Shown in pieces: positions 15 to 13,188 of a stretch of 27,769 nt of DNA; within the stretch, counting starts at the first letter, position 1, and each line of letters starts with the position of its first letter. The translations under genes and the position numbers were made by a program. The stretch spans positions 1 through 27,769 of IMG/VR virus record IMGVR_UViG_3300020183_000371; one strand, written 5' to 3'. The DNA is from a virus. The notes beneath the pieces are model-generated. The model was not told where the DNA came from. It worked only from the letters and a program-made list of their open reading frames with translations, and made no database searches.

Positions 15-527
15 ATGACTGACCGGGCGATTTTCAATCGGAAGTATACGTCTTTTGCTTCTGGCGGCGGCACCACGGTTTTTTTGGTGAACGGCGCGGG
101 TGTCACAACCCAACTTTCGCCTACTGAGAATTTTACCGCCGGTGAAAATCTGGTTCAGGGCGATTTTGTCTACGTCAGCGGCACCTCTGTGTTCAGGGCA
201 AGCGCTCTGAGTGGCTTGGCTGCGGATCGTTACGGCGTCATTGGCGCCACCGCTGCAGCGGCTAACAGCGGCAACACCGTGGCTGTGAACCTGGACAGTA
301 TTGTGGTCCTGAGTTCCGCCAACATTACGGCTGAGGTCGCTCTCGTCCCCGGTCAGTTTTACTATTTGTCGAAGTATCCCGGTCAGGTGACCCGTTACAG
401 CACCGCTTCAGGTGAGATTTCGAATTCTGGGACATATCAGTACCAGGTAGTTGCCCCCGTGGGGCAGGCTGTGAGCACCACTGAGCTTGAGGTTGAGATC
501 CAGCCGGTTACTGTGTTATATGATTGA
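15..527 (+). CDS. Virion/tail structural protein with YYL-type surface domain
   Basis: 170 aa, rich in Ser, Thr, Gly, Ala and Val, without catalytic motifs. The second half has the pattern LVPGQFYYLSKYPGQVT (about residues 110-127) followed by a short hydrophobic end (VEIQPVTVLYD). This 'PGQ-YYL...PG-VT' segment is common near the ends of phage tail-fibre and decoration proteins, so a virion surface role is likely; the exact part is not known. The start is an ATG with AGGG a few bases upstream (positions 8-10), directly after a TAA (12-14) that would end a gene lying left of the window. Codon use is visibly GC-richer than that of the genes from 528 on, which suggests that the following block has a different history. 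Next to it, on the opposite strand, the first dioxygenase gene ends one base after this gene's stop. Confidence 0.6.
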   Translation: MTDRAIFNRKYTSFASGGGTTVFLVNGAGVTTQLSPTENFTAGENLVQGDFVYVSGTSVFRASALSGLAADRYGVIGATAAAANSGNTVAVNLDSIVVLSSANITAEVALVPGQFYYLSKYPGQVTRYSTASGEISNSGTYQYQVVAPVGQAVSTTELEVEIQPVTVLYD

Positions 528-1151
528 TTACAGTTGTTCTAATATATGTTTTATAAAGTTGCTTCTAAGGATATCCTCTTCTGGTTTTTGAAAGTTAAAG
601 TTGTCGAACTCAAGTTCGGCGTTTGTTGAGTAATGAAAAAATATCTGTTTTACCCATTTTTGTTCGCATTTTTCTCTCCAGTGAGGCAGCTCACAACCTA
701 AGTACAAAACACCGTCTCCAACAGACGGTTTTGCTTCGTATGTGATTTCATGGTCGTTATTTTTAAAGAAAATAGACCAGGGTTTTGTTTTATCCGCCAT
801 ATTTAAACACAAGGACAAACTTATTTCACATGATGGACGGTCAGTGTGTACCATCAGTTCCTGCCCTTTGTAATATTTTCGGTAAAAAGTGTAAGTCGAG
901 TATAAAGTGTCTAACTTCAGCGCATCTTTTATCTTGGCTCGGATTATTTGATTCACTATGTTAATTGATAATATATTGTACATTTCCTTTGATCCTACAA
1001 CTTGTGTTGCGTTAGTTCGCTCTCGAATTGCATCCAACTCCACAGCAACATTTAAGTAGTTTAAAAGATCGTCTGATATAATATTTTTTACTATTGAGCA
1101 CTTGTTTTCTTTAAAATTTTTTAGATCTTCACTCATCAAAACACTTGTCAT
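528..1151 (-). CDS. 2-oxoglutarate/Fe(II)-dependent dioxygenase (1)
   Basis: 207 aa. The iron-binding facial triad is readable: H102-T-D104 in the strand VHTDRPSCEISLSLCLN, then the distal histidine H157 in ELPHWRE after the turn GDGVLYLG. The conserved pattern His-x-Asp, beta strand, 'GD-LY', His is that of the prolyl-4-hydroxylase-like double-stranded beta-helix fold. A basic residue for the 2-oxoglutarate carboxylate is less clear (R159 or K168). The family couples oxidation of 2-oxoglutarate to hydroxylation of a protein or small molecule; the substrate cannot be read from sequence. It is convergent with the structural gene at 15-527 and its stop abuts that gene. The upstream space to the + strand gene at 1209 is about 57 bp and may hold divergent promoters. 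It looks strongly AT-rich compared with gene 15-527. Confidence 0.85.
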   Translation of the reverse strand: MTSVLMSEDLKNFKENKCSIVKNIISDDLLNYLNVAVELDAIRERTNATQVVGSKEMYNILSINIVNQIIRAKIKDALKLDTLYSTYTFYRKYYKGQELMVHTDRPSCEISLSLCLNMADKTKPWSIFFKNNDHEITYEAKPSVGDGVLYLGCELPHWREKCEQKWVKQIFFHYSTNAELEFDNFNFQKPEEDILRSNFIKHILEQL

Positions 1152-1208
1152 GTCAGAACACCTTTTAACGCTTTATTATAGAAATACTGATATGTGACGC
1201 AGAAATCA

Positions 1209-1688
1209 ATGGTTCTTCGGAAGCCTCTTGTAATTATCAGTGGACTTTCATCTCAGTTGCCTCCGGGAGACACTATTGAAGGTGCTGCCGTTTCGAGTAT
1301 TGCAACTGCGGGCAGCGGCCTCGCCGGTGGCGGAGGAGTCGGAAGTAATTTTAGATTTGATGTTGTTCTAGCAGCAAACCCAAGCGGTCTTATTTTCACC
1401 GCCGGTGCTAGTGGATTAGGTTTAGACGGCTCAGCGGCTGCTAGCGGTAACGCAGCTTTAAGTGTCGCGAGTTCAGCTTTAAGTTCTGGAACTGCTGCTC
1501 TTAGTTCAGGTAATGCCGCTTTAAAAAGAATACAAGATACAGGTCTTGGTAACCTTAGCGGAGTAACCGTGGGAAGTTATGGATCTATTTCAGCTGGTAG
1601 TGTCCTAACTTTTAGCGGTGCTGCTTTTATTGCACAACCACCTGCAGCAGGGGGTGCTTCATTTAGTGATATTTTTGCCATAACTTAA
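1209..1688 (+). CDS. Tail fibre-like structural protein with Ser/Gly/Ala repeats
   Basis: 159 aa from the ATG at 1209 (MVLRKPLVIISG). A GTG five codons upstream (1194) is in frame, but the 'M-LRKPLV' opening is the form I associate with phage tail proteins, so I prefer the ATG. The middle holds repeats of the type A-S-S-A-L-S-S-G-x-A-A-L (about residues 75-105), a low-complexity pattern typical of cyanophage tail fibres, followed by a Gly/Ser-rich region and a Pro-Ala-Gly turn near the C-terminus (FIAQPPAAGG). Probably a fibrous virion protein in host contact. It stands alone on the + strand between two dioxygenase genes on the - strand (528-1151 and 1713-2174), which makes it a plausible, unproven target of them. 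Confidence 0.6.
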   Translation: MVLRKPLVIISGLSSQLPPGDTIEGAAVSSIATAGSGLAGGGGVGSNFRFDVVLAANPSGLIFTAGASGLGLDGSAAASGNAALSVASSALSSGTAALSSGNAALKRIQDTGLGNLSGVTVGSYGSISAGSVLTFSGAAFIAQPPAAGGASFSDIFAIT

Positions 1689-1712
1689 TTTTTATCCAAA
1701 TAAAGCAAAAAA

Positions 1713-2174
1713 CTATTTCTGACTTATAATTTTATACCAAACGGCTAGTGTATATCTAGAGTTATTTTCTACTTTATTGACTTTATGTTTATATTTTGAT
1801 CCTTCAAAACATATTGTTTTACCTATTTCGGGTATTACTTTTATATTTTCAACGACTGTTTCGCCTCCTTGATAGTCAGTGTTTAAATAAGTTATAGAAG
1901 CAAAATTATTACTTTTGTTTATTTTTCCGTCTACATGATATGTCATGTACGACCCTACGGGCCATTTTACTATCTCAAAATAGTTAGGCTCAATTAAAAA
2001 CTTCTCCTGTATCTCTTTACTTATTAATTCAAATAGTGTACAGTCATTTATTTTAAGTATTATAGTGTTTCTCCATATTTTATGTTTGTTTCTATTGTTT
2101 TCAAACAGCTCTATAAGGCACCCACACTCTTGTGAACTGAGAAAATTTTGTGCGGTATAGAAAAAAGGTAGCAC
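1713..2174 (-). CDS. 2-oxoglutarate/Fe(II)-dependent dioxygenase (2), prolyl 4-hydroxylase-like
   Basis: 153 aa, a compact prolyl-4-hydroxylase-type enzyme (2OG-FeII_Oxy_3 style). All landmarks are visible: VKWPVGSYMTYHVDG with H80-V-D82, the strand FASITYLNTDYQGGET, EIGKTICFEG, then distal H130 in KYKHKV and R140 in NSRYTLAVWY, ten residues later as expected for the 2-oxoglutarate-binding Arg. This is one of the clearest members of the cluster. The start is a GTG (MLPFFYTAQNFLS), which gives the usual N-terminal 'fL--eEC--l' helix of the family. The substrate is unknown; P4H-like phage enzymes are generally thought to act on proteins. It lies convergent to the tail gene ending at 1688, with a 24-bp gap, and divergent from the next dioxygenase at 2268. 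Confidence 0.9.
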   Translation of the reverse strand: MLPFFYTAQNFLSSQECGCLIELFENNRNKHKIWRNTIILKINDCTLFELISKEIQEKFLIEPNYFEIVKWPVGSYMTYHVDGKINKSNNFASITYLNTDYQGGETVVENIKVIPEIGKTICFEGSKYKHKVNKVENNSRYTLAVWYKIISQK

Positions 2175-2267
2175 TTTGTATTAATAAAAGAATAGTTTCG
2201 TTAATTACGACTTTAGTTGAAGCGTGTCTACACTACCGCTTACTATACTTTTGTTTCTTTTCAAAAG

Positions 2268-2792
2268 ATGGCCCTTTTAGACCGTATACAAATTTATGAG
2301 AATTTTTTAGATGAAGAGGAATCAGACAGAATTACTTATGATTTAAGCCTCCCAACGTGGAATGGAAGTGCCACATCGATTGAAACTGATGATCCTCAAG
2401 ACATAAAATTTTGGCGCATTGATACGCCTTCCGATAGTTTTTATTCACGAAGACTCTTAAATAAAATTGAAAAACTTTCTGGAAAAGAATTTGTTTGGTT
2501 GTGTGAGCCGAGACCTTATTTTAACGGTCAAACTTTTTCACAAGATGCCAGCTTACACAAAGATTCGTCTTTGGATGAAGCTATGACTTTTTTGCTTTAC
2601 TGCACAAAAAACTACAAGCCCGAGATGGGCGGATTTACTCTTTTTAAAGAAGAAGAAAACGAAGTAATAATCGCTCCGAAATACAATAGGGGTGTTTTAT
2701 TTCCTGCTACACTGGATCATAAGGCTTTTAGTTTTTCAAGGCCCTGGCATCCCTTACGGGTATCGTTAGCTTTTAAATTAAAACTTCGGTAG
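2268..2792 (+). CDS. 2-oxoglutarate/Fe(II)-dependent dioxygenase (3)
   Basis: 174 aa from the ATG at 2268 (MALLDRIQIYENFL). The frame stays open upstream to a TTG at 2217, but the ATG gives the family's usual N-terminal 'i-eNfL--eE---i' pattern and is preferred. Active site: H97-K-D99 in ASLHKDSS, the strand MTFLLYCTKNYKPEMGGFTL, then H151 in LDHKAFSF and R164 in LRVSLAFK. The His-to-Arg distance (13) is longer than the classical ten, but the same spacing occurs in the gene at 8220-8804, so these two may form a subgroup. It is divergent from gene 1713-2174; the 93 bp between the start codons probably holds both promoters. A tail gene follows after 34 bp on the same strand. Confidence 0.85.
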   Translation: MALLDRIQIYENFLDEEESDRITYDLSLPTWNGSATSIETDDPQDIKFWRIDTPSDSFYSRRLLNKIEKLSGKEFVWLCEPRPYFNGQTFSQDASLHKDSSLDEAMTFLLYCTKNYKPEMGGFTLFKEEENEVIIAPKYNRGVLFPATLDHKAFSFSRPWHPLRVSLAFKLKLR

Positions 2793-2794
2793 TT

Positions 2795-2803
2795 TGCTAC
2801 AAT
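2795..2803 (+). promoter_or_regulatory. Possible extended -10 promoter
   Basis: The sequence TGCTACAAT fits an extended -10 element (TGn plus TACAAT, five of six matches to TATAAT) in the short gap between the dioxygenase gene ending at 2792 and the tail gene at 2827. There is no convincing -35. A transcript would start near 2809 and include the AAAGGA ribosome site at about 2813-2818. This could allow the tail genes 2827-4717 to be expressed separately from the dioxygenase upstream. Motif match only. Confidence 0.3.
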
Positions 2804-2826
2804 TACGGTATCAAAGGACTTAATCG

Positions 2827-3144
2827 ATGGCTAGGTTTGTCGCTAGCGGAGTTGACCTTAACACCACAAACAACACCGTGGTGTTTCAGGATCCAAATGC
2901 AAGTTATTTGGTTATAAGTTTATACGCATCTACTCCGCAGGCATTAGCTGCAAACTGCGATATTTTAGTTAGCGGCACTCGAGGTAATACTTATATAACA
3001 AAAGTGAATCAGGTAGGTGCGGGAGAATCGACTGATTTTATTTCAAACAGATTAGTTTTAGTTTCTGGGCAAACTTTACAAGCCAGAAGTTCACTTGCAA
3101 GTGGTATCAGTATTTTTGCTAGTCTGTACGAAGTGAACTCCTGA
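2827..3144 (+). CDS. Small virion/tail protein
   Basis: 105 aa, rich in Ser, Asn, Thr and Val, with no charged clusters and no catalytic motif. Its composition (for example LVSGQTLQARSSLASGIS) matches the neighbouring tail proteins and suggests a beta-rich virion domain. The start ATG has a good ribosome site (AAAGGA about nine bases upstream). The gene is followed after two bases by the double-collar protein at 3147, so both are likely made together and may assemble together. Function beyond 'structural' cannot be read. Confidence 0.5.
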   Translation: MARFVASGVDLNTTNNTVVFQDPNASYLVISLYASTPQALAANCDILVSGTRGNTYITKVNQVGAGESTDFISNRLVLVSGQTLQARSSLASGISIFASLYEVNS

Positions 3145-3146
3145 TC

Positions 3147-4181
3147 ATGGCAAATCGATTTGAACGGGGTAAAGTTCCTCCTTATCCGTTAGTTCGACCC
3201 ACAACAGGTGGCGTTAAACTTGCATCTTCTTTCTCTCTTGAGCAAGACACTCAAAATATTGTTTTAGCTGGTGCTATTTATCCAGTTTATACATTACAGA
3301 CTGACGCTTCTTTTACTGAATGTGCGCCCAGTCTCAGTCCTTGTTCTAGCGGTGTAGCATTAAGCCGAACCACGTACTCTACGCTGTACAACCGCATTGG
3401 CGTTAATTGGGGCGCAGGAGATGGAACAAACACTTTTAACGTTCCTGATTTAAGCAGTAATCCTCGATATACCTGTGGCTTAGACGCAGGCCCTACTTAT
3501 TCAGGAGTTGGTACACGTTTAAAATATTCCCTGGATAGGCATACACATGCCTATAACAACCCTACGACAACGGGCTGGCCTGGTAATAGTCCTGTCAACC
3601 AAACTCGAAACCCTCAGTTCCCACAGAGCCCTAATACTTTTGATAATGCGGGAAATAATGAACAACACCCTGTCTCTCAACGACTTAAAGCTTGGATCGG
3701 AAATCAAGATTCTGGAGCTGAACTGCCTATAGGCACAGTTATTATGAGTTTAGTTCCTAGTAATACATTAGCTACATTTTTAACAAATAATCCTAATTTA
3801 CTTGTCGCTAGTGGACAGTCTATAGATGTTGCAAGTTATCCAAAATGGTTTGCCGCTACCAGTCAAACTACGCTTCCTGATCTTCGAGGTAGATTTTTAG
3901 GTTTTACTGATAACACTGTACTTTCTAGCGGCACCTTATCTTCTTCAACAGGACCCTCTATAGGGTATCATTACCATACGCTACCTGCTAGAGGAACAGA
4001 CTTCGCTCAGGGCCCAGGGTCACAACAAAACCTATACCGAGGTGAACCATCTAACATTAACGCTCAAGCTGTTGGAGGTCCCGGAGCCGGCGGCATGACC
4101 TCGGCTGCTTTTTCTATCGGTCCAGGTAATGAAATAAGACCTTATAATGCGTCTGTTACTTATTTGATAAAAGTAGCATGA
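3147..4181 (+). CDS. Tail collar protein with two collar-type domains
   Basis: 344 aa. Two copies of a phage tail-collar-type domain can be read. The first (about residues 45-115) has the order SRTTYSTLYNRIGVNWGAGDG...FNVPDLSS, the 'YS-LY--IG---G-GDG---FN-PDL-G' signature. The second (about 195-344) begins LPIGTVIMSLVPS and includes ASYPKWFAATSQTTLPDLRGRFL and ends RPYNASVTYLIKV, the usual 'RP-N--v-Y-Ik' C-terminus. His-rich turns (HTHAYNNP, GYHYHTLP) match metal-binding histidines seen in short tail fibre tips. Likely role: distal tail fibre or baseplate-tip protein in host recognition. The stop overlaps the start of the next collar gene by four bases (ATGA), indicating translational coupling. 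Confidence 0.75.
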   Translation: MANRFERGKVPPYPLVRPTTGGVKLASSFSLEQDTQNIVLAGAIYPVYTLQTDASFTECAPSLSPCSSGVALSRTTYSTLYNRIGVNWGAGDGTNTFNVPDLSSNPRYTCGLDAGPTYSGVGTRLKYSLDRHTHAYNNPTTTGWPGNSPVNQTRNPQFPQSPNTFDNAGNNEQHPVSQRLKAWIGNQDSGAELPIGTVIMSLVPSNTLATFLTNNPNLLVASGQSIDVASYPKWFAATSQTTLPDLRGRFLGFTDNTVLSSGTLSSSTGPSIGYHYHTLPARGTDFAQGPGSQQNLYRGEPSNINAQAVGGPGAGGMTSAAFSIGPGNEIRPYNASVTYLIKVA

Positions 4182-4717
4182 TTATTAGTTCGATTACACC
4201 TATTGGGTGGGATACCCAAGGTTCAATTATTACCGACTATTTAGGCCGTGTTTTTGTTCGTCCTGATGGGCGAGAGCTTTTGCAATCCACGTATTCAGAA
4301 TTATATTCAACTATCGGCAACAGATTTAATACTCTTAGCACGACAGCAGGTTATTTTCGAATACCTGACTTCAGAGGTGCTTTTATTAGGGGGGATAATT
4401 TAGGGTCAAATGGTGATCCTGATCCTTCCATTCGAACAATTCCAGGTACACCTACATTAGATTCCGGTCCCGGCACTGTTCAAACTAAATGCCTTAGTAG
4501 TCATACACATTATACTCCTACTACTTTTGCTAATTTTTGGTACGCCGGAGGTCAGCCGGCTCTTCGACCCCCGAACTGCCCTAACTTTGCTTTAACAAAT
4601 ACCTCAGCTTCTGGTTTTTTAGGCACCACGGCAGCCAGTGGACTTGGTATAGTAGAAACAAGCTCAGATTTACGACCAATGACTTTTATTGTCGATTATG
4701 TATTAAGGATTAAATAA
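4178..4717 (+). CDS. Second tail collar protein
   Basis: 179 aa with one collar-type domain. It opens with PIGWDTQGSIITDYLGRVF, contains STYSELYSTIGNRFN and YFRIPDFRGAFIRGDN (the 'Y--LY--IG---N......F-iPD-RG-FiRG' signature), an SHTHYTP histidine turn, and ends LRPMTFIVDYVLRIK. The 'R-PDFRGAFIRG' motif is closer to canonical short-tail-fibre collar domains than either copy in the preceding gene, so this may be the receptor-facing tip and the larger protein its partner or a diverged duplicate. The start overlaps the preceding stop by four bases (ATGA). Confidence 0.75.
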   Translation: MIISSITPIGWDTQGSIITDYLGRVFVRPDGRELLQSTYSELYSTIGNRFNTLSTTAGYFRIPDFRGAFIRGDNLGSNGDPDPSIRTIPGTPTLDSGPGTVQTKCLSSHTHYTPTTFANFWYAGGQPALRPPNCPNFALTNTSASGFLGTTAASGLGIVETSSDLRPMTFIVDYVLRIK

Positions 4718-5269
4718 ATGTGGTATTTACCCGGCACTAAACCTGTCCCACCTCAAAAAGAAGTAAAGGGGGTTGACGGACAAATATACACTGTCCCTCT
4801 CCCTTTAACTTCAGAGTTTTTTGAATCAATAGGGTGGAAAGAAGCCCCTCCCCAACCGACTGTTAATTTCCTCTACTGTCTCATTGACTGGGACGTGGAC
4901 GATGAGAAATGGACCCCTCTTGTTAAATCTTACGAAACGCGTAAGGCTATTTTCGAAGAGCATCGAACTTGTTTAATAAACGCAATTCGGGCATACATTA
5001 AAGAAGCAAGAAACGAAGTTTTAGATCCGAGTTTGCCGCCAGCCATGCGCCCGATGGTTGAAGAGCAGTATAAAGGTTACTTTGAGGAGATTTCTGAACT
5101 TTCTTCAATTAATTATCAGGACTCTTCCATTGATGAACTTTTATCTAAATTTGAAACCTACGATCTTGCTGTTCAACAAGATGAGCAGCAAAACACAGAC
5201 GCTTTACGTTTATACAATTACACTAAAATTTACAATTTAAAATCGCAGCCCCCTAGATCTTATGTTTAA
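4718..5269 (+). CDS. Unknown protein following the tail collar genes, possible tail-fibre assembly factor
   Basis: 183 aa, not recognised. The N-terminal part is Pro-rich (PGTKPVPPQK) with a Trp-containing core (VNFLYCLIDWDVDDEKW, about residues 49-66). The rest is predicted helical and acidic, with conserved-looking ARNEVLDPSLPPAMRPM and a Gln/Asp-rich stretch (AVQQDEQQNTDAL). The start ATG follows the preceding stop directly, so it belongs to the collar-gene operon. Tail-fibre chaperones (Tfa-like) often sit exactly here, and a small, helical, acidic protein with a Trp core fits, but no family signature is visible, so this is positional inference. Confidence 0.5.
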   Translation: MWYLPGTKPVPPQKEVKGVDGQIYTVPLPLTSEFFESIGWKEAPPQPTVNFLYCLIDWDVDDEKWTPLVKSYETRKAIFEEHRTCLINAIRAYIKEARNEVLDPSLPPAMRPMVEEQYKGYFEEISELSSINYQDSSIDELLSKFETYDLAVQQDEQQNTDALRLYNYTKIYNLKSQPPRSYV

Positions 5270-5271
5270 AC

Positions 5272-5796
5272 ATGTCTAATTTTTTAATTGAAAATTATAG
5301 AGGGGTTAAATATAAAAAAAATTTGAATATTGAACTTAAACCTGATATTCCCTCTTCAGAAGGTAATATTTTTACTTTAGACGAAAGTCTATCGAGTTTT
5401 TTACGGTCTTATTTTACGGATAATTTAGAGTCAAAAGATACTCTGTTACAAAAAGAGGATATAGAGGCTTCTGATTTTGAAGAAGAACTCGATTCTATTT
5501 TTTATATTGCTTGGAAATATTTAATTAGGTATAAAGAAATATACTTAACTTTAGAGGATCTCTCGTTTGTAAAGAATATACTTTTTGTTACTGATATTAA
5601 TTGGTTAAATGAAAATATTTGCGAAACTAGGTATTCGATGTGTCTTAACTTTTCTAGCGAACCTTTAGTTTTTTCATATAATCCTGATACAGAAATACCT
5701 CCAGGTGCCGGTAAGTTAGTTCCCGGAAATTTCAATAGTAATTTTTTAACTAACTTTACCTCTACGCCTCTGGTTATTTTATTGCGTTTATTTTAA
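5272..5796 (+). CDS. Unknown protein in the tail/dioxygenase island
   Basis: 174 aa, not recognised. It looks very AT-rich. The N-terminal half is acidic and helical (EDIEASDFEEELDSIFYIAWKY), the C-terminal half beta-rich with CLNFSSEPLVFSYNPD and a Pro-Gly turn (EIPPGAGKLVPGNF). I looked for a His-x-Asp...His triad as in its neighbours and found none, so I do not call it a dioxygenase. It starts two bases after the preceding stop and ends four bases before the next dioxygenase (5801), so it is probably co-translated with both and may be a partner of either the tail proteins or the enzyme. Confidence 0.5.
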   Translation: MSNFLIENYRGVKYKKNLNIELKPDIPSSEGNIFTLDESLSSFLRSYFTDNLESKDTLLQKEDIEASDFEEELDSIFYIAWKYLIRYKEIYLTLEDLSFVKNILFVTDINWLNENICETRYSMCLNFSSEPLVFSYNPDTEIPPGAGKLVPGNFNSNFLTNFTSTPLVILLRLF

Positions 5797-5800
5797 TTTT

Positions 5801-6430
5801 ATGTTTAAAAGTTTTTTAGAATCCCTTGAAGAAAATACAAAACCTTTACAGTCCTATGTGTCAACGTTTACCGATGTCTTGTCTGACGACATTCTTACTT
5901 CTTTTTTAGACTTAGTTAACTTTCAAAATTTTAACGAGAAAAAACAAGCCAGCGTGGGAATTGATTATGTGGTTGATTCAAAGGTACGGGATGCTTATTT
6001 TATGCAGCTCCCTAGTTGTTCTAAATTAATCACTGAAACAATTTTAAAATCTGTTCGGAATCTTTTAAATATTTATATTAATAAGCATGGATTTATTTTA
6101 GATAACGCTGATTTTCAATCTGAGCAAAGTTTTGTTTATTATGAGAATCAAAAAGGTTATACACCACATGTAGATGCGGTGACTTTTGACTCTACAAAAC
6201 GTTTATTTACGACAATTACATACTTTAACGATAATTTTATAGGCGGAGAACTTTATTTTCCTCGTTTAAATCTAACTTTGCCTATTAGACAGAACTCTAC
6301 TGTTATTTTTCCTTCAAATCAATTATTTATACACGGAGCTCGGAAAGTCTACGGCAGGAAAGTGATTAGTCCGTGTTGGTTTGGATATGAGAAAAGGGAA
6401 AAATTCGTTTTCCCCTGGGAAATAGGTTAA
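5801..6430 (+). CDS. 2-oxoglutarate/Fe(II)-dependent dioxygenase (4)
   Basis: 209 aa. Active site: H123-V-D125 in KGYTPHVDAVTFD, the strand LFTTITYFNDNFIGGELYFP, STVIFPSNQLFIHGARKV with the distal H178, and R186 in GRKVISPCWF. The spacing from H178 to R186 (eight) is slightly shorter than usual; otherwise the order is classic P4H-like ('GGEL-F' after the second strand, 'vFPs---iHga--V' before the histidine). The substrate is unknown. The gene follows the unknown 5272-5796 in the same direction. Its last 108 bases (36 codons) overlap the end of the - strand gene 6323-6949, so the two coding regions share sequence tail to tail. Confidence 0.88.
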   Translation: MFKSFLESLEENTKPLQSYVSTFTDVLSDDILTSFLDLVNFQNFNEKKQASVGIDYVVDSKVRDAYFMQLPSCSKLITETILKSVRNLLNIYINKHGFILDNADFQSEQSFVYYENQKGYTPHVDAVTFDSTKRLFTTITYFNDNFIGGELYFPRLNLTLPIRQNSTVIFPSNQLFIHGARKVYGRKVISPCWFGYEKREKFVFPWEIG

Positions 6431-6949
6431 ATCTTCACCATGATCTTTATATTCCATAACTGCAAAACAGTGTTTTTGAGCCGGATCAGAGAAATTTAAC
6501 CAAACTTTTTGGGTGTTATTTGAGACATTTATTATTCCGGTAAGGTGTACATGACATGTTTTGAAATGGTTTTCAAGATTATCTTCCTTGTTTTCAGTAA
6601 TTTGTAGTATCGCATTTGCGTCGGCGTAGTCTACTTTTGAAAAATTTATTAATGCTCCGTTTGTTTGTGAATTAATGTCAGAACCCAGATATAAAAGGAG
6701 ATAATTCTTGTTTTTTTCTAAGACTTTTTTTCCTTCTAAGAACATTAAACTTGTTTTTGTTATCTCAAGGTTTTTATCTTTGTTAGCTAGTATGTAGTCG
6801 TAAACAAAATAAGTTAAAGTTTTAGACAGAAAATCATAAGTTTTTTTATTTTTGAAGTTTGAAGTTATATAACACCGTAACGTTTTGCATAAATCTAGAC
6901 TAATGACCTGTTCATAAACAGCTAGATCGAGTTTTACTTTAGTCTTCAT
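6323..6949 (-). CDS. Unknown companion gene of the dioxygenase cluster
   Basis: 208 aa from the ATG at 6949 (MKTKVKLDLAVYEQVI). The frame stays open to 6973 inside the next gene; the ATG gives an 11-base overlap with gene 6939-7652, normal for coupled genes. The family is not recognised. The N-terminal part resembles the helical start of the neighbouring dioxygenases (VISLDLCKTLRCYITSNF), and the layout (a central Tyr/Leu-rich stretch, then a strand CHVHLTGIINVSNNT) is suggestive, but no His-x-Asp/Glu plus distal His and Arg can be assigned. It could be a dioxygenase that has lost its metal site or an unrelated partner. Its 3' end overlaps the convergent gene 5801-6430 by 108 bases; the gene is otherwise intact. 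Confidence 0.55.
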   Translation of the reverse strand: MKTKVKLDLAVYEQVISLDLCKTLRCYITSNFKNKKTYDFLSKTLTYFVYDYILANKDKNLEITKTSLMFLEGKKVLEKNKNYLLLYLGSDINSQTNGALINFSKVDYADANAILQITENKEDNLENHFKTCHVHLTGIINVSNNTQKVWLNFSDPAQKHCFAVMEYKDHGEDLTYFPGENEFFPFLISKPTRTNHFPAVDFPSSVYK

Positions 6950-7652
6950 TGCGTTTTTCGTAACGGAAAACATCGTACTTGGAAATTATAGCTTCTCCGA
7001 TATTTTCGAATAGTCTTCTTGCCCTTCCGAGATCTTCTAGTTTCGTACGGTGCACACCGTGAGTCACAACATCAAACGCGTCTAAACCTTTAAATAGCTC
7101 TCTTAGTAACTCTCTATCTTTTTGTTCTTTAATATAGCTTTCTGTCCAGAATACAATCGAATAACGTATTCCTTTTGTTATATCTTCAACTTTATGAGGT
7201 GTTCCTGTTGGATATGTTAGTAAGTCTCCAGACGGAAGTTTATAAAAAATCTCTTCGTCGTCTTTAGTTAATACTAATTCACCGTTTTCATAATCTGTTG
7301 TTTCGCTTATAAACAGCGTTGAAGAATAATGAAATGCACCTAAATTTGAATTAGAGTTTACATCTAAATGCTCTCTATAAAAATTCCCCTGTCGGTAACG
7401 GTTAATTATTATGGCTGAAGTTGCTTTAGGGTAAACTACGTACTGTATCCAAGAGCGAGTCTGATCCAACCTCTCAAATATTAAATTTTGTATCGCACCT
7501 AAAAATTCACCTGTATACTCTTGACAGTGTTTGATGCTGGGATTTGACGGCCCTGTAATAGGTTTAGTACTCCAGCCTTCCTCATCTTGTTCCAACCACT
7601 CTCTAATTTGTTTTGCTTCATCTTTTTCTAAAAACTTTTTAAAAACAGCCAT
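6939..7652 (-). CDS. PKHD-type 2-oxoglutarate/Fe(II) hydroxylase (5)
   Basis: 237 aa, close in layout to PiuC/YbiX-like PKHD-type hydroxylases. Readable features: N-terminal MAVFKKFLEKDEAKQIREWL, then INRYRQGNFYREHLDVN with H95-L-D97, STLFISETTDYENGELVL, SGDLLTYPTGTPHKVEDIT with distal H153, and R163 in GIRYSIVFWTES, exactly ten residues after the histidine. The C-terminal 60 residues form the extra helical region of this family, with R/K-rich ends. It is the longest and most canonical member of the cluster. The start codon overlaps that of the divergent gene 7651-8247 within a single CATG, so any ribosome site must lie inside the other gene's coding region. It overlaps the downstream gene by 11 bases. 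Confidence 0.9.
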   Translation of the reverse strand: MAVFKKFLEKDEAKQIREWLEQDEEGWSTKPITGPSNPSIKHCQEYTGEFLGAIQNLIFERLDQTRSWIQYVVYPKATSAIIINRYRQGNFYREHLDVNSNSNLGAFHYSSTLFISETTDYENGELVLTKDDEEIFYKLPSGDLLTYPTGTPHKVEDITKGIRYSIVFWTESYIKEQKDRELLRELFKGLDAFDVVTHGVHRTKLEDLGRARRLFENIGEAIISKYDVFRYEKRNED

Positions 7653-8247
7653 GGATTTTGATGACGGAATTAAACAGTATTATCTTACTGACTTAACCTT
7701 ATGTGACAAGGCTATAAATTTTTTTAATGAAAATAAAGAGCACCAATGTCAAGGGGCTATGTTCACCACTTCCGGCGAGCGAAAAGTAATTCCGTCTAAA
7801 GTTACGACAGACATTTCATGTTATATATCTGATGAGTTTCTAGAAGAACAACGGTTTTTCACGGAAATACTTAATTTTATCTGGGATGTAGTACAGACTG
7901 ATTATTTTAAACTGTTTCATTCACGAGGGTTTGATCACTACCAAATTTATCCTTGGTTCAATCTTCAAAAATACGAACCCCCAAATGGTCATTTTAATAG
8001 CTGGCATTGCGAACATTCTTTGAGCTCTGAGCAAGCTGTTTCCCGCGTGGCCGCTTGGATGCTTTATTTAAATACTTTAGACGAAGGCTACACAGAATTT
8101 TTTCATCAGAAAAAATCTATCCAACCTGAAAAAGGTAAACTTCTTGTTTGGCCTTCTTTTTATACTCACATACACAAAGGAAATCCCGTAAAAACACAAA
8201 TTAAATACATAATGACGGGATGGATTACGGGGGCGACCCAATTGTGA
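7651..8247 (+). CDS. 2-oxoglutarate/Fe(II)-dependent dioxygenase (6) with His-x-Glu motif
   Basis: 198 aa from the ATG at 7651. The open frame extends upstream to 7531, but that part is antisense to the start of the divergent hydroxylase and reads as a shadow. The core is WHCEHS (H119-C-E121), AAWMLYLNTLDEGYTEFFH, PEKGKLLVWPSFYTHIHKG (distal H173) and KYIMTGW, with K185 as the probable 2-oxoglutarate anchor. Glu replaces the usual Asp of the triad. A 'WH-E......W--YLN---GG/YTEF......KG-L-iWPs--TH-H-G-P....KYI-TGW' pattern is one I know from other phage and bacterial members, so the enzyme is probably active. It is divergent from 6939-7652 with overlapping start codons and overlaps the next gene by 28 bases (four if the next gene starts at the GTG at 8244). 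Confidence 0.88.
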   Translation: MDFDDGIKQYYLTDLTLCDKAINFFNENKEHQCQGAMFTTSGERKVIPSKVTTDISCYISDEFLEEQRFFTEILNFIWDVVQTDYFKLFHSRGFDHYQIYPWFNLQKYEPPNGHFNSWHCEHSLSSEQAVSRVAAWMLYLNTLDEGYTEFFHQKKSIQPEKGKLLVWPSFYTHIHKGNPVKTQIKYIMTGWITGATQL

Positions 8248-8804
8248 GTTTGATTGTTGTTCCTAATTTTTTAAACCAGCATAATTTTGCGCTCCTTTTT
8301 GATGAAATTTTTTATGCTGGTTGGCAGGCTAACAACAGAGATACGGCGGAAGACATCAAAAATAATTTTTATTCTTCTCGCGTAAGTTTAAGTATTAAAA
8401 CATCCAATCCGTTTATCTATTTGAGTGTCGCAAGTTATGTTCGATTAAAACTTAAAAAATTTTATAAAGGGTTAGGTCCTTTAAGGAGATGGCATGTTAA
8501 TGGTCAATTTTTTGGACAAGAAAGTAATTTTCACATTGATGTTCCGCATAAAAATGATACTTCTTCTATAACTTGTGTCATATTTACAAATACAGAATGG
8601 AGCACATATTGGGGAGGTGAATTTTGTTTTTATGATCATCAACTAAATGAATATAAATATGTTACTTACGTACCTAACACTGCTGTTATTTTTGCTAGTG
8701 AATTTGATCACTGCGGAAAAAGTCCGAACATCAATGCAGATGAACTTCGAACTTCCGTGGCTTTTATGTTTGATCGAAATAGTGCATCATTGGAATTAAA
8801 ATAA
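8220..8804 (+). CDS. 2-oxoglutarate/Fe(II)-dependent dioxygenase (7)
   Basis: 194 aa from ATG 8220. A GTG at 8244 would give a GTGA stop-start overlap with the preceding gene and has a G-rich ribosome site (GGGGGCG) about 11 bases upstream, so it may be the true start. Active site: H105-I-D107 in [10 protein letters not shown], the strand [37 protein letters not shown] with distal H164, and R177 in [10 protein letters not shown]. The 13-residue His-Arg spacing matches gene 2268-2792. It is the last member of the cluster and leads directly towards speD after 23 bp. Substrate unknown. Confidence 0.87.
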
Positions 8805-8827: not shown

Positions 8828-9193
8828 TTGGAATGTAAACACTGTGTTGCAGAGTTGTATAACGCAAATGCAGAGAAATTGAATGACGAAGCCTTTGTTC
8901 GCGGAGCTCTTATAGAAGCAGTAGAGCAAGCAAAAGCTACTTTAATTGATGTTCGTACACATTCTTTTGATCCCCAGGGAATAACTGGTTTTGCTTTGTT
9001 AGCTGAGTCTCATATCTCTATTCATACTTGGCCCGAATTTGGTTTTGCAGCGATCGACGCTTTCACTTGCGGCTTTACAACAGATCCCGAATTAGCGTGT
9101 AGTCATTTAGCTTCTGTTTTTGATGCAAAGGGTCATAGTCTTTCTGTAATAGATCGTTCAACACCAAAATCCTTAAGTAAAACTAATGTGTAG
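8828..9193 (+). CDS. speD: S-adenosylmethionine decarboxylase proenzyme
   Basis: 121 aa, full length for the bacterial/archaeal class. The enzyme decarboxylates S-adenosylmethionine to the aminopropyl donor for spermidine synthesis and matures by self-cleavage that turns a serine into a pyruvoyl group. The processing site is readable: LLAE60|S61HISIHTWPE, with H66 and C81 (AFTCG) at the positions expected for the processing and catalytic residues. The start is a TTG ([10 protein letters not shown]); no in-frame ATG is available nearby, and the first residues already match the family start 'KH-v-ELY'. speD is a known auxiliary gene of cyanophages and supports that host group. It sits between the dioxygenase island and an HNH gene. 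Polyamines may help pack DNA or support host growth during infection (inference). Confidence 0.92.
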
Positions 9194-9233
9194 TATATAA
9201 AGCTAAAATAACTTAAATCCCGCGCACATTTTT

Positions 9234-9665
9234 GTGAGCGAGTCGGAGCTGATATTTAATCTTCAATGTCTACAAAGACGCATTGCTAGAAAACGCTTTC
9301 GAAAAGGTATTTTAGACGCTTGGAATAATACATGCGCTTATTGCGGTTCAGATAGAGCCTACACACTTGATCACATTGTAGCTAGAGCTAAAGGAGGAGG
9401 AACAAAAAGAGGTAATTTATTAGCTTGTTGTCCGACCTGCAACCTCCAAAAATCAGATGAGTGCTGGTTTATATGGTTTCGTTCCCAAACATTTTGGAAC
9501 GATGAGAGAGAATTAGCTATTTGGAAATGGTTGAGCTATAACCATGAACAAAATATAGCCGCACGTGAATACGAAGAAGCGTGCCGAGAGCCGTTTAAAC
9601 TCCCGGCACAAAACAAAGACGTAAATGAATTACCGCTTAGCGAGCCGAGTGACGATACCGGCTAA
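9234..9665 (+). CDS. HNH endonuclease
   Basis: 143 aa. A complete HNH nuclease core is visible in the first half: CAYCGSDRAYTLDHIVARAKGG contains the first zinc-ligand pair (C-A-Y-C) and the catalytic LDHI histidine, followed by RGNLLACCPTCNLQKSD with the asparagine, the second Cys pair and the final Lys. The domain starts at about residue 35 and ends near 85; the rest is helical with Trp-rich segments (FIWFRSQTFWNDERELAIW). The start is a GTG that lies in the right arm of a small hairpin (9221-9240). The gene's end overlaps the convergent 58-aa gene 9630-9806 by 36 bases. It could be a free-standing homing endonuclease or a processing nuclease; the context does not decide. Confidence 0.88.
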   Translation: MSESELIFNLQCLQRRIARKRFRKGILDAWNNTCAYCGSDRAYTLDHIVARAKGGGTKRGNLLACCPTCNLQKSDECWFIWFRSQTFWNDERELAIWKWLSYNHEQNIAAREYEEACREPFKLPAQNKDVNELPLSEPSDDTG

Positions 9666-9806
9666 GATCTCCAGCACGCGATAGTATTTGGCGACTGCTG
9701 CGTCATCTTTTGGGGTAGGAGTTAGGTTGACGATCGCAAGGGCCAGAGCGTGAATTGCAAACAGAATCGTCAGCAGCTGCTGAACGTGGGCGAGTAATTG
9801 ATCCAT
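9630..9806 (-). CDS. Small membrane protein (58 aa), holin candidate
   Basis: A very short frame: ATG at 9806, stop TAA at 9630. The protein begins MDQLLAHVQQLLTILF, continues through AIHALALAIVNLTPTP and ends KYYRVLEILAGIVTRLAKR. Residues about 11-28 are hydrophobic enough for one membrane helix; a second amphipathic/hydrophobic helix (YRVLEILAGIV) and a basic C-terminus follow. One or two short membrane segments with a charged tail is the general make-up of small phage holins, and the endolysin gene lies 1.1 kb away. It shares orientation with two other small genes (9836-10150, 10137-10406), one of which also has a membrane segment. Coding is supported by codon pattern and the clean hydropathy, not by a recognised family. 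It overlaps the HNH gene end by 36 bases. Confidence 0.6.
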   Translation of the reverse strand: MDQLLAHVQQLLTILFAIHALALAIVNLTPTPKDDAAVAKYYRVLEILAGIVTRLAKR

Positions 9807-9835
9807 AACAGCTTATTAGCTCTAATTTAGTTTAA

Positions 9836-10150
9836 TTAATCTCTTCGAAAATTACTTCGTATTTCGATGGCCCCACCGAGTAGTTCTTGAGCCTTGGATC
9901 CATCTGGCTCGTGCTCGATTACTGAGTATTTCGGAGGCTCTTCGGCCTCCCATTGCTTTTTTATTTGTTCGACCTGTTTGTCTACGTCTTTTAAAGTTGA
10001 CTCAACTCGCCAAAGAATCCAATCGTGTCTGCAGTAATTTAAAATTAATTTTATTAGCTTATTTTTTCTTAAACTTTTAAATTCTTGGCACAGAGCGTTT
10101 AGTACTTCAAACGTAATTGCTAGCCAAAAATTATATTTAGAACTTTTCAT
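9836..10150 (-). CDS. Unknown small protein of the possible lysis group
   Basis: 104 aa, not recognised. The N-terminus is mildly hydrophobic (YNFWLAITFEVLNALC) but interrupted by charges, so a membrane segment is uncertain. A basic region (SLRKNKLIKL) and a charged helical segment (ESTLKDVDKQVEQIKKQWEAEEPP, shown here only as the type, residues about 50-73) suggest a coiled coil. Its start overlaps the end of gene 10137-10406 by 14 bases, so the pair is probably co-translated. Position between two small membrane proteins and near the endolysin suggests a part in lysis or envelope interaction; there is no motif to prove this. Confidence 0.5.
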   Translation of the reverse strand: MKSSKYNFWLAITFEVLNALCQEFKSLRKNKLIKLILNYCRHDWILWRVESTLKDVDKQVEQIKKQWEAEEPPKYSVIEHEPDGSKAQELLGGAIEIRSNFRRD

Positions 10151-10406
10151 TTATTTTACTAAGTATTAATTGATCTAATTTATCGTTAATGTGATTAAGG
10201 CGATCCTTAATTTCTGAGAGCCCGGAATTCAAGTCTGCTTTTGAGGCGTAAACCCTCGGAAAATTATTTATATCTTGCTCAATAACGTCTAATCGCCGTT
10301 TAATAGAATTAAAACGATCGTTCAGTACATTTTGACGTTGCTGATGAGACCACGTAAAAACGCCGACAACTGTTGCAAGTACTGCGGCTAGCGCTTCGAG
10401 GCCCAC
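10137..10406 (-). CDS. Small N-terminally anchored coiled-coil protein, lysis-related candidate
   Basis: 89 aa. The start is a GTG (MGLEALAAVLATVVGVFTW): residues 3-18 are hydrophobic and would form one membrane helix. The rest is a heptad-rich coil (LDVIEQDINNF and LSEIKDRLNHINDKLDQLIL, about residues 38-83) with a basic tail. This anchor-plus-coil layout is seen in phage holin-like/antiholin and spanin-like proteins, but it is also common in unrelated small proteins, so the role is inferred from position beside the endolysin. It overlaps the downstream gene 9836-10150 by 14 bases. Upstream is the 93-bp divergent gap to gene 10500. Confidence 0.55.
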   Translation of the reverse strand: MGLEALAAVLATVVGVFTWSHQQRQNVLNDRFNSIKRRLDVIEQDINNFPRVYASKADLNSGLSEIKDRLNHINDKLDQLILSKINEKF

Positions 10407-10499
10407 TGCTAATCTTTAACTAAATTAATTTTAATCGGCTTTGATCTCTATCTGGTATTAAATTTTGTCTTAAAATAAAGCTATCTAACAGCTCCTTAC
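10407..10499. promoter_or_regulatory. Divergent intergenic region, likely promoter-bearing
   Basis: A 93-bp AT-rich gap separates the - strand small-gene group from the + strand surface protein/endolysin pair. Both transcripts must start in it or read through from far away. A -10-like TAAAAT lies at 10471-10476 (+), but I find no matching -35, and on the - strand only AT-rich candidates. No strong ribosome site precedes the ATG at 10500. I therefore mark the region but no individual promoter. Confidence 0.3.
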
Positions 10500-10937
10500 A
10501 TGTCGGAATTTACTAAAAATTTAGAGCTGAATACAGTCGTAAATAGCGGTTTGACCGATGATTCGCGTCGTGTTTATTCGACGCATTTTGATCAACGACG
10601 GACCCTCAACGCTAGCGGCGTGGTTGTTGTGAGCGCTCAAAGTCGGGAGTACGCAGCGGATGGTATCTACGGTATTTCTGATTATTACCAACTGACTGTC
10701 AATGCCACGGGCATTCTGCGCGTCAACATTCGGGATCAAAACTCCTGCGGCAATGTGGTTGTTCTCAACTCTTCCGGCACCGAAGTATTAAATGCCAAGC
10801 CTTCTAAATTTAGCAGCCGCAATAATTCTGTTTCCAACACCACCATCAACAGCTCCGGGACTTATTACACCTACATTCAGCTGAAAGGGCGTAGCGGAGC
10901 TGAGTATCGCATCGGCGTGGACGTGACAAGCACCTGA
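10500..10937 (+). CDS. Putative surface/adhesion protein with pre-peptidase-like beta-sandwich
   Basis: 145 aa, no membrane segment. The layout YYQLTVNATGILRVNIRD, then GNVVVLNSSGTEVLNA, then TINSSGTYYTYIQL and YRIGVDV matches the strand order of bacterial pre-peptidase C-terminal (PPC)-like domains: 'D-Y-l-v---G-l-v-l......l-l-d--G--l......v--pG-YyI-v......Y-l-v'. Such domains bind polysaccharide or act as accessory modules of secreted and cell-surface proteins. Here the gene is directly joined to the endolysin: its TGA overlaps the next ATG by one base (TGATG). It could be a virion component helping attachment or an accessory to the lysin. Its composition looks GC-richer than that of the dioxygenase island. 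Confidence 0.5.
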   Translation: MSEFTKNLELNTVVNSGLTDDSRRVYSTHFDQRRTLNASGVVVVSAQSREYAADGIYGISDYYQLTVNATGILRVNIRDQNSCGNVVVLNSSGTEVLNAKPSKFSSRNNSVSNTTINSSGTYYTYIQLKGRSGAEYRIGVDVTST

Positions 10938-12181
10938 TGAAAATATCTCAAAAGGGAATCGATTTCATCAAAAGCTTTGAAGGTTTACGCCTAAACTCAT
11001 ATCAAGATCAAGCGGGTATCTGGACTGTAGGTTACGGCTCAACTGGCCCTGAAATCGGACCTGAATTAACAATTAGTAGAGAAGCTGCCGAGGAGTTACT
11101 TCGGCACGATTTGGCGTATTTTGAGCAAGTCGTTAACGACTCTTTAAAAGTGAGGGTAAATCAGAACGAATTTGATGCTTTAGTAAGTTTTAGTTTTAAT
11201 GTCGGGCCAAATGCTTTTCGGACCTCTACCCTTCTAAAACTTATAAATGACAAATCCGACAAAACCATTGCGGCGTCTGAGTTTTTGAAGTGGGTCAAGA
11301 TTGGCGACGGAAAAATTAGCGAAGGGTTAAAACGGCGCCGCGAGGCAGAAAAATCGCTATTTTTAACCAAGCCCATAAAGTCTGCTTTGGCCCACTCCAT
11401 CGTCGCTCAACAGGAAACGTGGTTAAAACGCAGACCTGTACAAGCGCAGGCTTTATTCGCAGAAGAGAAATTATATGTACCTAAAAATTCAGCGCACATA
11501 TGGAACACCATAACGATGGTCCCTGGTGAGACTCACTATAGAGTTGTTTTAGAAGCTCAACCAGACAAACCCTGGTGGATTTTTCCTGAACACTGGAAAA
11601 TAATTAACGACCCCAAAGTTTCTGACGAACCGATTCCTCTTGATACTTCAAAAAAAACAGTTTTAGACGTTCCTTACTTCTCTCAGAGAGATAACGCACG
11701 GGATCCTCTGCGGACTTGTTTTTCAAGTTCGTGTGCAATGTTATTGAAATATTTAAAACCCAAAAGCATAAAAAACGATGATGAGTATATAAACAGTGTT
11801 TTCCGCCGTGGGGATACGACATCACCCGCTGCTCAGATCGCAGCTCTTGAGTCTTACGGTCTCTATGCCGAATTTAAACAAAACGGTGGATGGGCGGACA
11901 TTGACTCCCAACTGAATTCAGGTATTCCTGTACCCATCGGAATCCTCCATAAAGGCCACGTGGACAACCCCACGGGAGGCGGCCATTGGTTGATCGTAAT
12001 CGGACGCTCCGAAGACAATAAGAGTTACATCGTTAACGACCCCTACGGCGACCTTGATTTGATTCAAGGCACGTATATCAACACAAATGGTGCAAAGCTG
12101 TTCTATTCAAAGAAAAATCTTGCACCCCGTTGGATGGTAGAAGGACCCGGTTCGGGTTGGTACATCAAAGCTAAAATTTGA
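10937..12181 (+). CDS. Bifunctional endolysin: GH24 muramidase plus C39-like peptidase
   Basis: 414 aa with two catalytic domains. Residues about 1-145 are a T4-lysozyme-like GH24 muramidase: SFEGLRL with catalytic E15, YQDQAGIWTVGYGST with D24 and T30, NQNEFDALVSFSFNVG, and the closing RRREAEKSLF. It cleaves the glycan strands of peptidoglycan. Residues about 160-225 form a linker/SH3-like region with paired aromatic motifs (KPWWIFPEHW). Residues about 240-385 resemble a C39-type (papain-fold) peptidase: DVPYFSQRDN, C261 in RTCFSSSCAMLLKYL, H350 in GGGHWLIVIG and D368 in IVNDPYG supply a plausible Cys-His-Asp triad. The combination suggests attack on both glycan and peptide parts of the cell wall. 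It starts in a TGATG overlap with gene 10500-10937. No signal peptide is seen, so release needs a holin; candidates lie at 9630-10406. Confidence 0.88.
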   Translation: MKISQKGIDFIKSFEGLRLNSYQDQAGIWTVGYGSTGPEIGPELTISREAAEELLRHDLAYFEQVVNDSLKVRVNQNEFDALVSFSFNVGPNAFRTSTLLKLINDKSDKTIAASEFLKWVKIGDGKISEGLKRRREAEKSLFLTKPIKSALAHSIVAQQETWLKRRPVQAQALFAEEKLYVPKNSAHIWNTITMVPGETHYRVVLEAQPDKPWWIFPEHWKIINDPKVSDEPIPLDTSKKTVLDVPYFSQRDNARDPLRTCFSSSCAMLLKYLKPKSIKNDDEYINSVFRRGDTTSPAAQIAALESYGLYAEFKQNGGWADIDSQLNSGIPVPIGILHKGHVDNPTGGGHWLIVIGRSEDNKSYIVNDPYGDLDLIQGTYINTNGAKLFYSKKNLAPRWMVEGPGSGWYIKAKI

Positions 12182-12210
12182 TCTGGTCTCACTTCTAAAT
12201 TCATTGTTTT

Positions 12211-12447
12211 ATGGGCTTCGATCTCGAAAATATTCTGACGACCTGGGATACTCAATGGGAGCAATCTAAAGCTGATTTCTTAGAAGAACTGTATGAGTTT
12301 TATTCCCCCGCAGATTACTGTTATACAGGGCTATTTCTCCGCTACCAAAAAGATCTGGCGGAGTTTGTGCGCGACTGGTTTCGGCTTGATCCCTCTGATG
12401 TGCGATTTGGTAAGCCGTGGTTATTCCCTGTACCTACAATTGGTTAG
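12211..12447 (+). CDS. Small unknown protein
   Basis: 78 aa, not recognised. It is acidic and rich in Trp, Tyr and Phe (TTWDTQWEQSKADFLEELYE; FLRYQKDLAEFVRDWFRLDP). The aromatic-acidic composition and short length fit a phage accessory or inhibitor protein, but nothing specific can be said. It lies between the endolysin and the small HNH gene on the same strand, with 29 bp and 13 bp gaps, so it is probably part of one transcript. Confidence 0.45.
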   Translation: MGFDLENILTTWDTQWEQSKADFLEELYEFYSPADYCYTGLFLRYQKDLAEFVRDWFRLDPSDVRFGKPWLFPVPTIG

Positions 12448-12460
12448 AGGAAAATAAACT

Positions 12461-12685
12461 ATGGCTGATCGGGATTACCGCAGAGAATACGACGCCTACC
12501 ACGGTGAGCCCGAACAGATTAAACGGCGAGCTGCTCGAAATAAAGCTCGCCGTCACCTAGAAAAAGAGGGTCGCGTACAAAAAGGGGACGGAAAAGAGGT
12601 TGATCATAAAGATCACAATCCTCTAAATAATAGTCCTGCTAATATTAGAGTTAGATCCCGTTCTGCCAATCGGAGCGATCAATAA
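12461..12685 (+). CDS. Small HNH-like nuclease or DNA-binding protein
   Basis: 74 aa, highly basic. The first half is an Arg/Lys-rich helix (RRAARNKARRHLEKEG). The second half carries the HNH-type core EVDHKDHNPLNNSPANIRV and RSRSANRS: 'VDH-D-nPLnNsp-NiRv-S-s-N' matches the catalytic His and the conserved Asn of small HNH proteins. The domain lacks zinc-binding Cys pairs, as many minimal members do. Likely nicks or binds DNA; phage HNH proteins of this size are often found near genome-packaging or structural genes. Its TAA overlaps the next ATG by one base (TAATG), so the two are coupled. Confidence 0.7.
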   Translation: MADRDYRREYDAYHGEPEQIKRRAARNKARRHLEKEGRVQKGDGKEVDHKDHNPLNNSPANIRVRSRSANRSDQ

Positions 12686-13188
12686 TGGCAATTATTCCTG
12701 GCTCTGACATGTCGGGCAAAGTGCCCGAAGGTCAACTTCAGGGGTTGCAGTTCCCTCCCGGTCTGGATGGGTATAACCGCCAGCCTGGGTTGGGTATCCG
12801 TCGTGCCATGCTTCTCGATAACGGGAACCGCGTCGCAGCTCAGATCGAGCATGATCGCGGGGTTTATGTCCGACCCCCCGTGGGGCCTGTCGAATACGCA
12901 GAAGGCAATATTAAAAAAAGCACGGAGCTGACTGGCGTCGCTGGATATAACCAGCGTGCTATTCCCCTTAAGGACAGTGCTGATGACATGAGTCAGCTCG
13001 AGTACATCAACTCCCTTCGTCAAGCTGAACCGGGGCAACGGTTACGGATGCAGCAAGGGCTGCTTCAGAATCGTCAGCACTTTGTGAACACCCCGACCGT
13101 TCATGCTGACTACCCGTCCATGAGCAGCAACATGGTGGACAACCTCATGATGCTGGCTAAAGCCAAACTTGCTTCAAACAAAAAGTGA
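12685..13188 (+). CDS. Unknown protein, possibly virion-associated
   Basis: 167 aa, not recognised. Pro/Gly-rich N-terminus (GLQFPPGLDGYNRQPGLGIR), a middle with many Asn and Gln, and a helical Met-rich end (SSNMVDNLMMLAKAKLASNKK). No catalytic motif and no membrane segment. It looks GC-richer than the dioxygenase island. Translation is coupled to the small HNH gene upstream (TAATG) and probably to the 43-aa frame downstream (GTGA). It contains one of the six + strand CCCCGTGG octamers (about 12876). A scaffold or virion role is a guess from composition only. Confidence 0.5.
   Translation: MAIIPGSDMSGKVPEGQLQGLQFPPGLDGYNRQPGLGIRRAMLLDNGNRVAAQIEHDRGVYVRPPVGPVEYAEGNIKKSTELTGVAGYNQRAIPLKDSADDMSQLEYINSLRQAEPGQRLRMQQGLLQNRQHFVNTPTVHADYPSMSSNMVDNLMMLAKAKLASNKK

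Follow-up and report, generated by a model that had tools for sequence, protein, structure and literature searches.

The 27,769-nucleotide stretch of viral DNA analysed here (hereafter the window) is IMG/VR virus record IMGVR_UViG_3300020183_000371, a linear metagenomic contig of 27.8 kb. Between positions 528 and 8804 it carries seven intact open reading frames, OX1 to OX7, which a first-pass annotation had read as dioxygenase genes interleaved with tail genes. That seven genes of the 2-oxoglutarate (2OG)-Fe(II) oxygenase type lie here is borne out, for six of them by profile and for OX1 by an AlphaFold model. Their company is likewise confirmed, the fibres of this segment carrying Collar domains (PF07484), but the arrangement is not a mere alternation: oxygenases and collar fibres together fill one variable, swappable slot, from 528 to ~9150, between the conserved gene g1 and the pair speD/HNH (Table 1). 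This slot holds an exchangeable cassette, with unrelated alleles on a near-identical backbone, and its collar fibres are putative receptor-binding proteins.

The identity of the oxygenases was established by profile searches, proposed earlier as a check, which returned 2OG-oxygenase matches in Pfam and PHROG for most of the seven. Five exceed the cut-off of Pfam 2OG-FeII_Oxy_3 (PF13640; OX2 1e-09, OX4 1.6e-10, OX5 2.6e-10, OX6 4.2e-12, OX7 3.6e-09), OX3 stays slightly below the gathering score (8.3e-05), and OX1 has no Pfam match. PHROG families match all seven (OX1 phrog_2954 at 4.5e-39, OX3 and OX7 phrog_274 at ~1e-20, the rest phrog_61/2297), and the E-values exclude chance matches. For OX1, an AlphaFold2 model built on 55 relatives (predicted local distance difference test, pLDDT, 91.3; predicted template modelling score 0.86) was matched by Foldseek to a prolyl-4-hydroxylase (E 6e-09) and by VIA to the 2OG oxygenase 6n1f (Z 20.4) and to PHD2 (Z 17.7). 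Its HxD...H triad is invariant in the alignment of 55 relatives, with the family signature HxD...HWR, and on the strength of the model we regard its assignment as a 2OG oxygenase as settled. The iron site read by eye in the first-pass annotation is confirmed, the metal triad HxD/E...H being intact in 7/7; a downstream Arg or Lys, the putative 2OG ligand, is assignable in six, whereas K168 (+11) of OX1 is not conserved in its family. OX1 to OX7 belong to the 2OG-Fe(II) oxygenase superfamily, with a double-stranded beta-helix predicted by profile (OX2-OX7) or model (OX1).

Subfamily assignments made earlier also stand. OX6 is P4H-like (WHCE) and matches prolyl 4-hydroxylases (P4Hs; 5c5t, 3itq, 5hv0) at 1e-9 to 4e-10, and OX5 is of the PKHD type, matching PiuC at 1.6e-17 over most of its length. 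Against the NCBIfam PiuC/YbiX equivalog, OX5 reaches 115.5 bits of the 143 required, so that its predicted kinship to these hydroxylases is clear and equivalence is not; its setting among phage tail genes also sets it apart from them. OX3 and OX7 likewise remain below the cut-off of NCBIfam FlmC (37 and 43 bits vs 240); among the papers searched, none treats FlmC together with flagellin and oxygenase, and the name serves as a lead only. The PHROG labels themselves are misleading: PHROG 2954 ('ferrochelatase'), noted in the window and in L217-L296, is a 2OG oxygenase family, and PHROG 274 and 2297 ('DNA endonuclease'), which also match PF13640, are oxygenase families too. Genes of the 2954 type are listed in cyanophage tables as 'hypothetical with ferrochelatase domain' (PMC3037559), and such names misdirect automatic phage annotation.

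Relatives of the window's lineage were gathered through polymerase and primase, the longest contigs reaching 75-87 kb; all IMG/VR contigs are fragments and were analysed without reads. Gene order in the lineage is kept as g1, g2, the slot, speD, HNH, a lysozyme-type gene, thyX and primase. The best relative of the primase is that of Synechococcus phage S-EIV1 (29% identity), and from this kinship together with that of the oxygenases the host is likely cyanobacterial. Bacterial genomes scanned with g1 yielded 0 relatives and hence neither host nor provirus, and IMG/VR scans with the single proteins OX1 and OX5 gave no matches.

Exchange of the cassette is most evident from the 10.7 kb contig L146, which is 95.6% identical to the window over 11-528, 97.7% over 8957-13824 and 100% over the last kilobases. 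Between these flanks, clear nucleotide similarity is limited to part of g2: in place of 8.4 kb of the window, L146 has two collar genes of a different fibre set, along with three oxygenases of its own (PKHD-like, PF13759-type and P4H-like). The left edge of the swap is sharp, at the stop codon of g1, and the right edge is gradual within speD, identity climbing from 52 to 94% from 8857 to 9157. The speD gene is itself recombinant in part, sharing 73% of its nucleotides with L146 where the genes just beyond share 93-100%. Given near-identical flanks and unrelated slot contents, near-identical phages carry different fibre-plus-oxygenase sets. The tie to tail genes is thereby stronger than first claimed, since oxygenases and collar fibres are exchanged as a unit; the phase-like variation once suggested finds no support here, and whole-cassette exchange explains the variation better.

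Comparison of the locus among relatives, likewise proposed in the first-pass annotation, places oxygenases in the slot of L146, G001, L218 and L297. In G001 (81.8 kb) the slot holds three, including homologues of OX1 (56%) and OX4, and oxygenase number differs among close relatives (7, 3, 3). L218 and L297, found through their oxygenases, are more remote relatives within the lineage (g1 47-50%, L297 primase 54.5%). The order in L218 is that of G001 and the window (OX1, at 47% and in the same place, then g3, two collars, g6/g7, OX4 and g8), whereas L297 follows L146, with two collars and then homologues (35%) of the first two L146 oxygenases; it additionally has an OX6 relative outside the slot. 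Two cassette types therefore recur in distant relatives, window/G001/L218 and L146/L297, and this pairing of particular oxygenases with particular fibres, conserved over such distance, is the strongest sign of joint function.

Among 28 complete slots, scored with oxygenase models that had been iterated on the retrieved sequences, five hold both collar and oxygenase genes, one (L381, with a GT47 gene) holds oxygenases without a collar, and 22 hold neither. Fisher's test for collar against oxygenase gives 6e-5, or 0.0015 without L218 and L297, both uncorrected for relatedness. That the lineage as a whole is characterised by oxygenases is ruled out, because most relatives have no PF13640 gene (present in 3/41 lineage records, and in 1/15 of an earlier, overlapping set excluding the window). 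Many slots of relatives instead encode a large repetitive protein of ~800 amino acids that resembles a fibre in its sequence. A GT47-type glycosyltransferase is also frequent, including 7 of the 22 slots with neither collar nor oxygenase; its G001 homologue, just left of g1, matches Exostosin_GT47 at 3e-11. Such GT47/RXYLT1-like genes were seen in L133 (5136-6011), L134 (9147-10870), L135, L136, L169, L175 and L178, two with a sulfotransferase. We regard the slot glycosyltransferases and sulfotransferases as candidate fibre-modifying enzymes.

Where did the seven oxygenases come from? In a maximum-likelihood tree of 96 oxygenases, from which OX1 was excluded as too divergent, OX2 to OX7 fall in separate places, with low support at many forks. 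Constraining them to one clade lowers the log-likelihood by 242 (p-AU, approximately unbiased test, 1.2e-51), which rules out tandem or recent duplication and upholds the earlier reading of their diversity. The nearest kin of OX2 are gene 139 of S-RSM4 and IMG/VR relatives, those of OX3 are S-CAM1 and S-RSM4 genes, and that of OX5 is an ACG-2014f gene; OX6 lies within the group of S-RSM4 gene 141, and OX4 groups with the same-place genes of two relatives. The G+C content of the oxygenases is 30-37%, vs 45% for the backbone. The ratio of nonsynonymous to synonymous substitution between window and G001 was at or near saturation and was not used.

The density of these genes, by contrast, is not without precedent as had been supposed. 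Nine 2OG-type genes lie within 6.3 kb of S-RSM4 (FM207411, 88.7-95.0 kb, genes 132-142), adjoining a tail-fibre gene, and the S-SCSM1 genome has 24 (PMC9602691). Among 160 IMG/VR loci with oxygenases, 32 hold at least five within 8.3 kb and nine hold at least seven; the loci were retrieved by way of the OX1 and OX6 families, near-duplicates included, so that they demonstrate recurrence and not frequency. Other IMG/VR arrays also adjoin tail-fibre genes (S-RSM4-type contigs, L240, L236, L241, L266, L300, L302, L249) or lie beside virion structural genes (L351, L326). What is new is the location of the oxygenases in a swapped fibre slot.

Table 1. Genes of the slot and its edges (window coordinates)
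Feature	Position	Strand	Remarks
g1, conserved gene at left edge of slot; likely a virion protein	15..527	+	45-98% identity in 40 lineage contigs
OX1, 2OG-Fe(II) oxygenase, HTD...H (H102/D104/H157), phrog_2954	528..1151	-	profile, AlphaFold model, triad
g2, short repetitive gene beside g1	1194..1688	+	partly kept across lineage
OX2, 2OG oxygenase, HVD...H (H80/D82/H130), R140	1713..2174	-	nearest S-RSM4 gene 139
OX3, 2OG oxygenase, HKD...H (H98/D100/H152), R165	2265..2792	+	phrog_274
g3, small gene preceding collar fibres	2827..3144	+	kept in G001 and L218
Collar-type tail fibre, two Collar domains	3147..4181	+	PF07484 4.3e-15, phrog_523
Second collar-type tail fibre	4178..4717	+	PF07484 9.2e-08, phrog_523
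g6, fibre-associated gene	4718..5269	+	weak match in G001
g7	5272..5796	+	position shared with G001/L218 gene pair, those two 37% identical
OX4, 2OG oxygenase, HVD...H (H123/D125/H178), R186 or K187	5801..6430	+	kept in G001 and L218
g8	6323..6973	-	overlaps OX4 tail-to-tail and OX5; position shared with G001/L218 gene pair
OX5, PKHD/PiuC-type 2OG oxygenase, HLD...H (H95/D97/H153), R163	6939..7652	-	
OX6, P4H-type 2OG oxygenase, WHCE...H (H119/E121/H175), K185	7651..8247	+	
OX7, 2OG oxygenase, HID...H (H105/D107/H164), R177	8220..8804	+	phrog_274
speD, S-adenosylmethionine decarboxylase	8828..9193	+	PF02675 3.4e-37; right edge of swapped segment fades within
HNH nuclease, conserved	9234..9665	+	right of slot

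The genes between the oxygenases are less readily classified. No family was found for g6 in Pfam/PHROG profile searches, and from its position it is perhaps an assembly protein. Position and C-terminal pattern had raised the suspicion that g7 and g8 are degenerate oxygenases; profile comparisons did not rise above the controls, or did so only weakly for g7 of G001, and the structure model of g8 was unusable (pLDDT 32). Their position suggests that they are possibly divergent oxygenase-like partners or chaperones. OX4 and g8 overlap tail-to-tail by 108 bases, g8 and OX5 share 35 bases, and a single CATG (7650-7653) supplies the start codons of both divergent genes OX5 and OX6, leaving no promoter space between them. 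The HNH nuclease is strongly conserved at the slot border, with weak similarity to the IscB HNH region, and one may speculate that it is linked to recombination there. Far to the right, at 26775-27734, lies a protein that by eye resembles a VWA domain (metal-binding DxSxS).

How might a set of oxygenases serve a tail-fibre cassette? We favour, at slightly better than even confidence, an exchangeable adhesin-plus-modification cassette whose oxygenases mature the phage's own fibres. In this scenario the segment from 528 to ~9150 would be a host-recognition cassette of collar-type fibres, accessory genes and 2OG-Fe(II) oxygenases private to it. Drawing on Fe(II), O2 and host 2-oxoglutarate, these enzymes would act while the particle assembles and hydroxylate the fibre or adhesin proteins encoded alongside them, either at amino-acid residues or at attached sugars. 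The modification would tune stability or receptor contact, and a swap of the cassette would move the adhesin and its matching chemistry together; OX2, OX3, OX5, OX6 and OX7 would have joined it later, out of an oxygenase pool shared with T4-like cyanophages. This proposal builds on the en bloc replacement of the cassette that separates window and L146, on a backbone 95-100% identical, on the same slot with OX1/OX4 homologues in G001 and the matching orders in L218 and L297, and on the co-occurrence of collar and oxygenase genes (5/5 collar slots vs 1/23 others). It also draws on the surface-modifying enzyme types (GT47, sulfotransferase) found in the same slot elsewhere, and on the oxygenase arrays that border tail-fibre or virion genes in other phages.

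Collagen-type hydroxylation as the specific reason for the oxygenases is not supported, because collagen-like G-P-x repeats occur without them: such repeats are present in the G001 tail locus and also in relatives lacking oxygenases, and the window, truncated so that its upstream tail genes are missing, yielded none. In the lineage, tail-region proteins with these repeats were noticed in L132 (1251-1955), L163, L169, L170, L173 and L177. That a viral P4H acts on viral collagen-like peptides is stated in the passage of PMC9301287 that cites Eriksson 1999.

Several points weigh against fibre maturation. What the data show is the linkage of oxygenase genes with fibre genes; substrate, modified residue and chemistry are inferred. 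In the unbiased sample the collar-plus-oxygenase genomes are close kin, so that the association is not phylogenetically independent, and in L381 oxygenases occur although no collar fibre was recognised. The enzymes are encoded on both strands with overlapping ends, unlike a single late tail operon. Certain cyanophage oxygenases sit among replication genes, and thus not all need serve the tail. A recombination hot spot, moreover, would gather cargo without functional linkage. Conceivably, then, the tail slot collects small mobile genes whose products target host proteins (e.g. EF-Tu, ribosomal proteins) or metabolites, as suggested by the low G+C, many sources and variable number of the oxygenases, by the closeness of the OX1 fold to a prolyl hydroxylase from Pseudomonas whose structure was determined together with EF-Tu (4iw3), and by the preference of the S-SCSM1 authors for host reprogramming (PMC9602691). 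Such a collection accounts poorly for the ordered pairing of given oxygenases with given fibres in distant phages and for their repeated location beside tail genes elsewhere, and we consider it unlikely, though a serious competitor.

The remaining alternatives appear far weaker. Consumption of 2-oxoglutarate might change how the cyanobacterial host signals through NtcA and nitrogen, but it predicts neither seven distinct families nor fibre linkage nor joint exchange, and uncoupled turnover in the 2OG oxygenase superfamily is a poor sink for 2-oxoglutarate. Although proposed for cyanophage 2OG oxygenases (Sullivan et al. 2010, PMC3037559), such metabolic control seems quite improbable here. Slightly less probable still is an AlkB/TET-like repair or modification of nucleic acids, which was proposed for the Syn9 oxygenases beside uvsX/uvsY (PMC2984593) and is echoed by the 'DNA endonuclease' labels of PHROG; Pfam contradicts those labels, among solved structures OX5 and OX6 match best to protein hydroxylases or enzymes resembling them, and the genes sit in a tail slot, not among repair genes. 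A metagenomic chimera joining oxygenases to tail genes, conceivable for a single contig analysed without reads, is the least probable of all: slot gene order agrees with G001 and L218, the slot edges fall at conserved genes in many contigs, and the catalytic residues are intact.

For the 2OG oxygenases, numerous in cyanophages, the published guesses at a role are nitrogen sensing, DNA repair and host reprogramming. A near-identical phage pair differing in its cassette, together with two recurrent cassette types, now points to the virion as the substrate. More tentatively, at somewhat less than an even chance, phages may swap an adhesin and the private modifying enzymes that match it (oxygenases, or glycosyltransferase and sulfotransferase) as a single module, and aquatic phages would then share a general system for altering receptor contacts post-translationally. 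If true, this would explain why 2OG oxygenases rank among the most numerous cyanophage accessory genes.

The window resembles the known exchangeable tail-fibre and receptor-binding cassettes of phages in presenting a variable block of putative adhesins between conserved genes that is swapped by recombination, and differs from them in that enzyme genes travel with the fibres, oxygenases here and either a glycosyltransferase or a sulfotransferase in relatives. S-RSM4 shares with it an OX1-family member (gene 132) and encodes in gene 139 the nearest isolate relative of OX2 and in gene 141 a close relative of OX6, but is a T4-like member of the Kyanoviridae with its array on one strand, and the status of a swapped cassette was seen for the window and not for S-RSM4. 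The genome of the cyanophage S-SCSM1 likewise encodes numerous, mutually divergent families of oxygenase, whereas its oxygenase genes are dispersed over 228 kb and were read by its authors as host reprogramming (PMC9602691). The PBCV-1 and bacterial P4Hs, finally, are related to OX6 by profile, yet OX6, known from sequence alone, has HxE where they have HxD.

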